NCBI GenBank assembly: GCA_018302265.1
Contig: JAGVZV010000029.1
Coordinates: 1-34,049 of the forward strand
DNA length: 34,049 nucleotides
Direction of reading: 5' to 3'
Source: Candidatus Woesearchaeota archaeon
GTDB taxonomy: Archaea > Nanobdellota > Nanobdellia > SCGC-AAA011-G17 > JAFCDX01
The translations under genes and the position numbers were made by a program. Positions 30,987 through 34,049 of the stretch are shown here, in pieces. Numbering within the stretch: position 1 is the stretch's first letter; every line of letters begins with the position of its first letter. The notes under the pieces were generated by a model that saw only the letters and a program-made list of their open reading frames with translations, did not search any database and had not been told where the DNA came from.

Positions 30987-31286
30987 CTATTTAACCATAT
31001 CTTTTAATTTAGGACATATCTTTTTTGTAAATGCTACAACTTGCTTTGCATATTCTATAGTCAATATTTTTCCATAGTAAGTTACAGAATTTCTGAAGTA
31101 TCTTAAATCATTAAGAAATGAAATATCATTATCTAAAAACCCTGACTTTTTAAGATAAGAAATTTCTGCTTCATGGGCGTAAGATCCAGAAGAATTATAT
31201 CCATCCAAAAGGAGTTTAGCCCTTAGTTAATGGAGCATTTTTTGATTATTCCTTGCTTGATATATTCTTCAAATTCTTTTGGCAGA
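30987..31286 (-). pseudogene. Degraded HEPN toxin gene
   Basis: 5' fragment MNLPKEFEEYIKQGIIKKCSIN* then frame change into RAKLLLDGYNSSGSYAHEAEISYLKK...NDLRYFRNSVTYYGK.. Confidence 0.7.
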
Positions 31287-31287
31287 T

Positions 31288-31848
31288 TCATATTTCAATG
31301 CTCCCTTTTAATACTATTCCATTAAGTATATTATCTTTTAAATGTTTATGCATATCTTTCCAAGAATTATAAAAATTAATAGAAACTGTTCTTTCCAGCA
31401 TTTTATTAAATTTAAATAAATTTACTTCTTTTCTCTTTGTTCCAATTATGGCTATATCTATGTCTGAGCGGTTCTCTTCATCAATCCAAACATCTTCTCC
31501 CCTTGAATAGCTTCCAAAAAGAATTATAGTGCAACCAGGAAATTCATTAAATAAGAATCTTGGGAGCTCAGATTCATAAATCATCTTCAGATTTTCAACC
31601 CGCTTCATTTCAATTGCTTTTGGACTATCCCTATTAAACTCAATAGATAGAAGATTCATTGTTTTTGACTTTTTTATTTTTATAAGCCCTTCTCTTCCTA
31701 ATTCAATTAATGCATGGGAAACTGCTGTTGGGGAGACTTTCAGCATTCCAGCTATCCCTCTCAAATTCAGAATTTGCCCTGATTTTATACACAAAAGTCT
31801 AAATATTTCTGCCTGCAATCGTGTCCATTTTAATTTATACATATCCAT
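31288..31848 (-). CDS. wHTH + MNT nucleotidyltransferase, putative antitoxin
   Basis: IAGMLKVSPTAVSHALIELGREGLIKI; GSYSRGEDVWIDEENRSDIDIAIIG; start chosen at MDMYKLKW from TATA spacing (ORF track gives 31860). Confidence 0.8.
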   Translation of the reverse strand: MDMYKLKWTRLQAEIFRLLCIKSGQILNLRGIAGMLKVSPTAVSHALIELGREGLIKIKKSKTMNLLSIEFNRDSPKAIEMKRVENLKMIYESELPRFLFNEFPGCTIILFGSYSRGEDVWIDEENRSDIDIAIIGTKRKEVNLFKFNKMLERTVSINFYNSWKDMHKHLKDNILNGIVLKGSIEI

Positions 31849-31880
31849 TTTAGTTAACATGTGTCTATTTTAGTTTATAT
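31821..31880. repeat. Three tandem 20-bp repeats over the antitoxin promoter/start
   Basis: GTGTCCATTTTAATTTATAC / ATATCCATTTTAGTTAACAT / GTGTCTATTTTAGTTTATAT. Confidence 0.85.
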
Positions 31881-31965: not shown

Positions 31966-32427
31966 ATGTATTCATTACTGAGCTTTATTGGGATATTAAT
32001 TGGTATTCTAATAGCAAAATATACAAAAGAGGAATTAAAACAAGGAAAAAAGTACTTCTTGTGGATAGAGAGAGCGTCTTTAATATTAATTCTATTGGTA
32101 ATAGCATTTAATTTTAAATTATCCTGGTTGGTTCTGATAGGTTTGATGGCAGGATATTTTATTCCTGTACAATACTTGGCATTTGGCTTAATCTTAACCT
32201 CCTTTGAAAATATAATAATAGCCTGTTTAATATTTATATATGGATTGCCGTACGGTTCTCTGATAAACAAGGATAAAACCAAAAGGGTTTTAAAGGAATT
32301 AATTTTATTTATAATACCTGCATTGTTATTAATCAATAATTTTGGCTTAATGTACCAAAAAGAGTTAATCTCGGTTGCAGCAGGCATATTATTGATAAGG
32401 GGTGTAAATTGGAGTTTCAAGAAGTAA
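31966..32427 (+). CDS. Small multi-pass membrane protein, unknown
   Basis: ORF with several hydrophobic segments; overlaps the next ORF. Confidence 0.6.
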   Translation: MYSLLSFIGILIGILIAKYTKEELKQGKKYFLWIERASLILILLVIAFNFKLSWLVLIGLMAGYFIPVQYLAFGLILTSFENIIIACLIFIYGLPYGSLINKDKTKRVLKELILFIIPALLLINNFGLMYQKELISVAAGILLIRGVNWSFKK

Positions 32428-33158
32428 TAAAAGATTTAAAGCAAAAAAGAGAGCTTTCTGACTTAGATGACAGTTTCATCAAAAGCAGGGTTATGGACTA
32501 TCTAAATCAAAACAAGCTTTCTGACAAGTTCATGGAAAAGAAATTCTCAAAGACATCTGTATACAAAAGAATGTTCAAGGATATAAGAAGAAAACTGCAT
32601 GAAATCTATGGTATTTTCAGATCAGATACATTCAAAGAACATCCATCAGTAAAGGAGAGACTGGTATATTACAAGGAAATATATCACAAGATTTTCTCGA
32701 TAACAGGAAAGCCAAAGAAAATTCTAGATATTGGATGCGGATTAAACCCAATGTCTTACAAGTACTTGGGGTACAAGCCGTATTATTACGCTGCTGATAT
32801 AAGCAATTATGATGTCTCTAAAGTGTATCAATTCTTCAGGGTAAACAAGATAAGGGGAAGGGCATTTACATTCAATCTAATTGATGATCCATGCTCCAAA
32901 CTGCCTATAGTTGATGTCTGCTTCTTATTCAAGGTTCTTGAGTCATTAGAGGCTATTAAAAAGGGAATTTCCGAGAGCATAATCAAAGGATTAAGATGCG
33001 ACTGGATTGTTGTTTCCTTCTCAAAAAAACAGATCTCGGGTCTTAAAATAAGAAAAGCAGGCCGTTCCTGGTTCAGAAGAATTCTTGGAAAGCTAAAATT
33101 GCACTATGTTGTATTTGACATTGGAGATGAGATATTCTTTGTTATAAAGAGAAAATAG
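32409..33158 (+). CDS. SAM methyltransferase resembling the ArmA/FmrO 16S rRNA methyltransferase family
   Basis: KKILDIGCGLNPMSYKYLGYKPYYYAADIS; preceding helical region; apparent TTG start. Confidence 0.7.
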   Translation: MEFQEVIKDLKQKRELSDLDDSFIKSRVMDYLNQNKLSDKFMEKKFSKTSVYKRMFKDIRRKLHEIYGIFRSDTFKEHPSVKERLVYYKEIYHKIFSITGKPKKILDIGCGLNPMSYKYLGYKPYYYAADISNYDVSKVYQFFRVNKIRGRAFTFNLIDDPCSKLPIVDVCFLFKVLESLEAIKKGISESIIKGLRCDWIVVSFSKKQISGLKIRKAGRSWFRRILGKLKLHYVVFDIGDEIFFVIKRK

Positions 33159-33215: not shown

Positions 33216-33893
33216 TTAAACAGGAATCAAAATCTTATCTTTTGCATTTTCCATTGATTTAACAATCAAAACTTTTTCTAAATCCAGGATTTTTTTAACA
33301 ATCAAGCTTTCAGAGTTTAGTGCGTATAAGATTGTTTTTCCAAATTTTCTTCTTGGTTTAATAATATTATACATTTCTAAAAATATCCACGAATTAAAAA
33401 TAACTTGTCTGGAGACCTCTAAGTTTCTAGCTATCTCTTCTTTAGAGAAGTCTAATGGATAATTATCTGATAAAAAATCAATTATTCTCACCTTTGTAAT
33501 ATTTGAAAATTTAGCTAAAAGTGATCTTATATTTCTTCTTATTTTTCTTTTTCGAATATTTATATTACTTAATTGTCCTTTATTTATAGATATATTTGGA
33601 TCTTTTTCAATATCTTCTAAAGTTACTAATCTTTGATTTTTTGGAGAAAATAATAAGAAAAGAACATTATCTAATTTTTTAAGTTCTTTTAATTTTTTTT
33701 CTGTTATTAGAAATTTTTTAGATTTAGTGTATCTTACTTCGATATAAAAAAGCTTATCATCTTTCTTTGCAGTTATATCAAAATGTGAAGTTGGTTGCTT
33801 TTTACTAATCCAATGAATATCCTTAAATTTTAATTTTTTAAGATATAATATTTCCTTTCTTTCATAAAATTTACCTACTTCATAAGTATTCAT
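33216..33893 (-). CDS. PD-(D/E)XK-like nuclease domain fused to wHTH
   Basis: SHFDITAKKDDKLFYIEVRYTKS; C-terminal FSKEEIARNLEVSRQVIFNSW. Confidence 0.6.
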   Translation of the reverse strand: MNTYEVGKFYERKEILYLKKLKFKDIHWISKKQPTSHFDITAKKDDKLFYIEVRYTKSKKFLITEKKLKELKKLDNVLFLLFSPKNQRLVTLEDIEKDPNISINKGQLSNINIRKRKIRRNIRSLLAKFSNITKVRIIDFLSDNYPLDFSKEEIARNLEVSRQVIFNSWIFLEMYNIIKPRRKFGKTILYALNSESLIVKKILDLEKVLIVKSMENAKDKILIPV

Positions 33894-34033
33894 TTAGTTA
33901 CCTCTATTTTTTCAATTTCTATCCTTAATAAATCTCCTTTTTCTATATTTAATAGCCGTATCATTTCTGTTGGGAGATTGATGGATAAACTTGTTCCGCT
34001 TTTTCTAACAGCCCTAATAAATTGTTCTTTCAT
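33890..34033 (-). CDS. 47-aa AbrB/SpoVT-like DNA-binding protein
   Basis: MKEQFIRAVRKSGTSLSINLPTEMIRLLNIEKGDLLRIEIEKIEVTK; ATGA overlap with 33893; missed by the ORF track (<60 aa). Confidence 0.75.
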   Translation of the reverse strand: MKEQFIRAVRKSGTSLSINLPTEMIRLLNIEKGDLLRIEIEKIEVTK

Positions 34034-34049
34034 TCTAATATAATATAAG

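Follow-up and report, generated by a model that had tools for sequence, protein, structure and literature searches.

On balance, two overlapping genes at the end of an archaeal contig are probably a free-standing, translationally coupled unit of an AbrB repressor and a homing-type endonuclease, the nuclease here being of a PD-(D/E)XK-wHTH kind. The window, by which we mean the whole 34,049-nucleotide stretch analysed, is an entire contig (G000:C34) from a genome of 0.59 Mb that is 82% complete. It ends at position 34049, just 16 bases upstream of the start of the smaller gene, and no tRNA was found in it. The locus comprises:

33890..34033, minus strand: P0002, a 47-aa AbrB/MazE-like protein (Pfam, NCBIfam, identities to other AbrBs)
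33216..33893, minus strand: P0001, a 225-aa nuclease and winged helix-turn-helix (wHTH) protein (open reading frame)
33890..33893, minus strand: ATGA overlap of stop and start, with likely translational coupling (sequence)
33564..33893, minus strand: putative N-terminal Hjc/NOV_C-like PD-(D/E)XK domain, P0001 residues 1-110 (PHROG, Pfam, hhalign, low-confidence model)
33216..33563, minus strand: C-terminal winged helix, P0001 residues ~111-225 (identity to a wHTH family, AlphaFold2, Foldseek)
34034..34049, minus strand: visible 16 bases of the putative P0002 promoter/operator, CTTATATTATATTAGA ahead of the ATG (CTTATATTAT common to L154)
32409..33158, plus strand: flanking FmrO-like rRNA methyltransferase (Pfam FmrO, E 8.8e-16; synteny in L164, L165, L166 and L168)

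Both reading frames are intact and their four-base overlap is exact (34033-33890 and 33893-33216, minus strand), as the original prediction had it in describing an AbrB-like ORF coupled through ATGA to a larger one. The pairing appears to be beyond chance, because other genomes contain homologues of both halves, and those of AbrB overlap their own partners by the same four bases. The same prediction read the gene order as that of an antitoxin and its toxin; the order is indeed common to toxin-antitoxin (TA) operons, but the comparative evidence favours a mobile unit of homing type.

The smaller protein proves the more informative half of the pair. P0002 matches NCBIfam doc_partner (TIGR02609, E 2.4e-6), below its cut-off, and Pfam MazE_antitoxin (PF04014, E 7.8e-5), where its 23.0 bits slightly miss the curated 24.7; these two matches bear out the AbrB fold that had been proposed for it. 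Within its own order, three close relatives of 44-46 aa were found, in L060, L061 and L062 (60, 47 and 44% identical), and the next ORF, overlapped by ATGA, is a LAGLIDADG gene in the first two and a 64-aa remnant in the third. Profile searches were run on the own order, on 200 genomes of a second order and on 371 genomes of the phylum, and they yielded 22 close members in addition to the window's. Nine of them precede a LAGLIDADG_3 protein (L060, L061, L116, L154, L155, L157, L159, L160, L161), in every case above the curated Pfam cut-off (E 4e-22 to 1e-4). The four-base overlap is kept in seven of these nine (L060, L061, L154, L155, L157, L160, L161), as it is with the remnant in L062; the gap is 1 in L116 and, to the first listed start, 71 in L159. 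The LAGLIDADG protein of L159 has a C-terminal wHTH, as P0001 does (HTH_45, E 0.002, below cut-off).

In ten further members (L107-L115, L117) the next gene encodes a helical protein of ~140-200 aa, and several of these pairs lie upstream of ileS, so not every AbrB of this subfamily belongs to a homing unit. These helical-partner pairs are possibly a domesticated relative of the homing-type unit. The AbrB gene overlaps that of the helical partner in L107-L115 and L117. Single members precede a 260-aa ORF at a gap of 1, with a nuclease-like motif seen by eye (L156), and an 86-aa Cys/His ORF (L106). The L156 motif is PD-(D/E)XK-like by eye only: the AlphaFold2 pLDDT of this partner is 42, and it has neither a Pfam nuclease match nor similarity to P0001. 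Pfam gave no match for the L106 partner, which to the eye is HNH-like, and it was left out of the nuclease count.

No recognised toxin was found as a partner among the 22 close relatives. Distant AbrB matches in the same searches precede PIN-like ORFs (VapC-type, by eye), so these searches would have revealed a TA pairing. The TA-like pair originally predicted finds no support in the partners of the close relatives, which are LAGLIDADG (9), nuclease-like (1), remnant (1), Cys/His (1) and helical (10) products. In viral contigs no member of the subfamily was confirmed, and a scan of genome contigs returned only three loci (L183-L185), with the same sequences as L156, L159 and L157, from Nanoarchaeota/Pacearchaeota MAGs of the window's class and another order, which makes the host of the window a small archaeon of DPANN type.

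The AbrB-sharing units in other genomes sit at conserved genes, four with gene-end remnants. Units in L116, L160 and L161 adjoin tRNA-Arg(TCT), that in L157 adjoins an interrupted tRNA-Arg sequence that is intron-like by eye, and those in L154 and L155 adjoin tRNA-Phe(GAA). The fen1 gene is the site of the L061 and L062 units and kae1 that of L156 and L159; here the stop of the second gene overlaps or touches the start of the intact gene. Upstream of AbrB, L160, L156, L061 and L062 carry a fragment of the gene end whose register agrees with base 1-3 of the intact copy. In L160 it matches the tRNA-Arg 3' end at 17 of 22 bases (letter-shuffle p 0.004), in L156 the kae1 start at 26 of 35 (MTIVLGIESTAHI against MIGLGIECTAHT; p 0.004), in L061 the fen1 start at 13 of 13 (p 0.17) and in L062 the fen1 start (p 0.02); these p values take no account of the register with the gene end, which lends further weight. 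No remnant was found at the remaining units, namely five associated with tRNAs, L060 and those at other sites. The kae1 site is occupied both by L156, whose second gene is not LAGLIDADG, and by L159, whose second gene is, and the two are unrelated; the second gene of the unit thus appears to be exchangeable.

In the window, the second gene encodes an apparent nuclease of another kind. Residues 1-76 of P0001 match PHROG 6591, a Holliday junction resolvase (E 4.7e-6), with weaker N-terminal matches to Pfam NOV_C (5e-4), Hjc (0.011) and also YraN, and residues 39-103 align to A6, a set of three distant PD-(D/E)XK sequences (hhalign E 3.3e-6). The motif HFDITAKKDDKLFYIEVR (residues 37-54) lies inside the region that matches the Hjc-type PD-(D/E)XK fold. 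The nuclease-like core first noticed here is upheld by the PHROG, NOV_C and Hjc matches, and so is the reading of EVR instead of E-x-K: E11, D39 and E52 are present and Arg54 replaces the motif-III Lys. From the Hjc pattern, we take the active site to be E11, D39, E52 and R54. In the PD-(D/E)XK superfamily the motif-III Lys can be replaced or can migrate to the following helix (PMC1913061), and residues 65-74 of P0001 are Lys-rich, so nuclease activity seems possible despite Arg54.

AlphaFold2 gave the nuclease part low confidence (mostly pLDDT <50), and the model does not confirm a nuclease fold; a sequence search of PDB chains gave no match. Pfam found no LAGLIDADG domain in P0001, unlike the partners of related AbrBs, and Pfam, NCBIfam, PHROGs and PADLOC assigned it to no known toxin family, the matches being to nuclease and HTH proteins only. 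Candidate homologues of the N-terminal part were by inspection mostly NrdR-like or other ORFs, not nucleases, and three matches from the phylum (L043-L045) were set aside as distant PD-(D/E)XK proteins. Near L043, but without overlapping it, lies an AbrB gene with a MazF-like gene.

The C-terminal wHTH proposed for P0001 is well supported. AlphaFold2 models residues ~130-220 with high confidence as a winged helix and a long C-terminal helix (pLDDT 90-97 across ~131-210), and Foldseek places this part with ArsR/MarR repressors (E ~1e-4). The domain belongs to an order-wide and mostly stand-alone wHTH family of ~105 aa, its nearest stand-alone relatives in the same archaeal order being 38-46% identical. 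Matches to the family (E <= 0.01) occur in 53 of 99 related genomes, with up to ten per genome, a list whose weak end takes in other HTH proteins and a few chance matches. Almost all own-order matches to P0001 cover the wHTH alone. We found no other fusion of nuclease and wHTH in the own order, the 371 phylum genomes, phages, viral contigs or genome contigs, and no full-length homologue of P0001 in the last three. Conserved pairing of exactly these two genes, which the original prediction set as a check, was not observed, there being no second such fusion in several hundred genomes.

The stand-alone wHTH has surroundings of its own. In 24 of 32 loci (L002-L033) a conserved 'HT..KGFP' protein of ~90 aa is encoded divergently next to it, as in L005 (1489-1812 and 1879-2145), and this partner has no Pfam match (L005 tested); the window fusion is without such a partner. 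At L051 (169-1989) a 492-aa ORF with no convincing Pfam match ends directly before a wHTH gene of the same family, and beside it is an ORF that appears Cas4-like by eye.

Sister genera show what the site of the window copy may look like without it. There, dph5 lies downstream of the FmrO-like methyltransferase gene in the same orientation (L164, L165, L166, L168; dph5 was recognised by its TP_methylase domain and sequence), which places the window unit at the methyltransferase/dph5 junction, in antisense. In sister genus G001 (L165) dph5 directly follows the methyltransferase and the junction is unoccupied. In G002 and G003, and also in G033, which is more distant, unrelated ORFs separate the two genes, and the junction may therefore be an insertion hot spot; the ORFs in L164, L166 and L168 encode 119, 318 and 49 aa and differ from one another. 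A search of the window's own assembly found no dph5, which would fit a gene located off the contig, but this assembly is only 82% complete. In the three sister genera, no member of the AbrB subfamily was found at E 1e-6. The window also holds a HEPN/MNT-type pair (30987-31440 and 31288-31860, minus strand), about 1.4 kb from the AbrB pair. Its nucleotidyltransferase ORF is intact and its HEPN frame is broken, with the N-terminal part (MNLPKEFEEYIKQGII) in another frame and about 50 aa missing relative to L050, so that the HEPN partner looks disrupted.

Ahead of most of the relatives' AbrB genes, some 20-30 bases from the ATG, stands a TATA-like box, and repeats follow it as far as the start codon, most clearly in L106 (CTGATTAAATCAGATTAAATCAG|ATG) and L111 (TTATTTAATCTTATTTAATCTT|ATG). 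The 16 bases visible in the window fit this pattern and share CTTATATTAT with L154. The repeats are AT repeats in AT-rich genomes, so an operator for autorepression is no more than suggested. P0002 is a probable autorepressor of the unit.

We propose a model in which the Hjc-like PD-(D/E)XK and winged helix nuclease would cut a conserved chromosomal site that lacks the unit, the winged helix supplying DNA specificity, and recombinational repair of the cut would copy the unit in. The co-translated AbrB would bind the repeats between TATA box and start codon and repress the operon; in a host already occupied this would hold cutting down, and entry into a naive host would allow a burst of it. Because the contig stops short of the window unit's far flank, we infer that this copy homes, and likewise that Arg54 permits cleavage, that the winged helix aims the nuclease and that AbrB represses. 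The unoccupied junction in G001 and the absence of the AbrB subfamily from searches of the three sister genera speak for homing. Against it stand the lack of a visible target remnant, with the far end of the unit off the contig, the lack of a second copy of the P0001 nuclease, and the Arg in motif III. The ten close AbrBs with a helical partner also count against it, as do the five tRNA-associated units and L060 without a remnant.

Other explanations draw on the same evidence. As a type II TA pair, P0001 would be a growth-inhibiting nuclease that an AbrB/MazE antitoxin neutralises and autoregulates. We think this unlikely, although both the AbrB/MazE family and a gene order with ATGA typify TA operons and a HEPN/MNT-type pair is close by. 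The close AbrBs pair with homing endonucleases or the helical protein, PIN-like ORFs going only with the more distant ones, and P0001 has neither a toxin family match nor a conserved effector homologue. That close relatives often precede homing endonucleases at the ends of essential genes makes the pair look more like a selfish element than an ordinary TA system.

The change from Lys to Arg could also point to a chromosomal regulator operon, with a catalytically dead nuclease (EVR), P0001 acting as a winged-helix repressor and AbrB as co-regulator. A wHTH drawn from a stand-alone family, with a fold like that of ArsR/MarR repressors, would suit that role. We consider it improbable, and no more credible than a TA pair, as E11, D39 and E52 are kept, the motif-III Lys can be replaced or can migrate within the superfamily (PMC1913061), AbrB relatives partner LAGLIDADG endonucleases, and no such pair turned up in sister genera. 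Alternatively, the fusion being a singleton, the pair could be a chimera or a relic in decay: chance fusion of a local nuclease and a wHTH gene would have replaced the nuclease of an AbrB-homing unit, and the unit would by now be immobile or inactive. Decay of such units is seen at the L062 locus; in the window neither frame is broken and the overlap is exact, and we judge this reading highly improbable.

Beyond the homing-type unit that we favour for the window, it is tempting to envisage an archaeal class of homing elements defined by a tiny AbrB repressor, a wider idea that we hold tentatively and with slightly more doubt than belief. Nucleases of different kinds (LAGLIDADG, PD-(D/E)XK-wHTH, perhaps HNH-like) would be exchanged in such a class beside a constant regulator and promoter; the element would invade essential genes at their ends and restore these with its own divergent copy. 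Homing endonucleases able to cut their own host have to be kept in check. In I-TevI this is done by self-repression (PMC3943268); of a small repressor gene dedicated to the task and travelling with exchangeable nucleases, the literature searched gave no example. That search, which most subscription journals lay outside, returned no work on both AbrB and LAGLIDADG, and the single paper matching AbrB, homing endonuclease and archaea is about iron in Synechocystis; we regard the novelty of the pairing as provisional. Should the idea be true, some AbrB 'antitoxin' pairs of small archaeal genomes would be selfish homing elements, and P0001 would be a compact PD-(D/E)XK-wHTH chimera and a possible site-specific nuclease. 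It also becomes testable how selfish endonucleases, by replacing essential gene ends, persist in a minimal genome.

Free-standing homing endonuclease genes, which have no intron, are known for example from phage T4 (PMC3943268). As there, the nuclease gene stands without intron or intein, and the AbrB relatives precede LAGLIDADG_3 at conserved genes; here, however, a separate overlapping AbrB gene comes first and the window's enzyme is PD-(D/E)XK-wHTH, not LAGLIDADG. Mobile endonuclease ORFs of fungal mitochondria bring in a divergent copy of a gene end and leave the native end behind, as in Allomyces atp6 and Glomus atp6, atp9, cox2 and nad3 (PMC3630166). The gene-end insertions with native-end remnants in L156, L160, L061 and L062 are alike, but they are archaeal, involve 5' gene ends or tRNA ends rather than C-termini, include an AbrB gene, and do not come from the window copy. 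I-Ssp6803I is cited as a PD-(D/E)XK homing endonuclease (in PMC3943268). The proposed unit would share with it a homing enzyme on a PD-(D/E)XK core. I-Ssp6803I is intron-encoded and is not known to have an AbrB partner. Archaeal Hjc, YraN and NOV_C nucleases have an E..D..E-x-K type core of similar spacing, whereas P0001 has Arg for Lys and an added C-terminal winged helix. With VapBC and MazEF the pair shares a small AbrB gene in first position, an overlapping second gene and probable autoregulation, and it differs from them in that its second gene is not PIN, MazF, Doc or any other recognised toxin.
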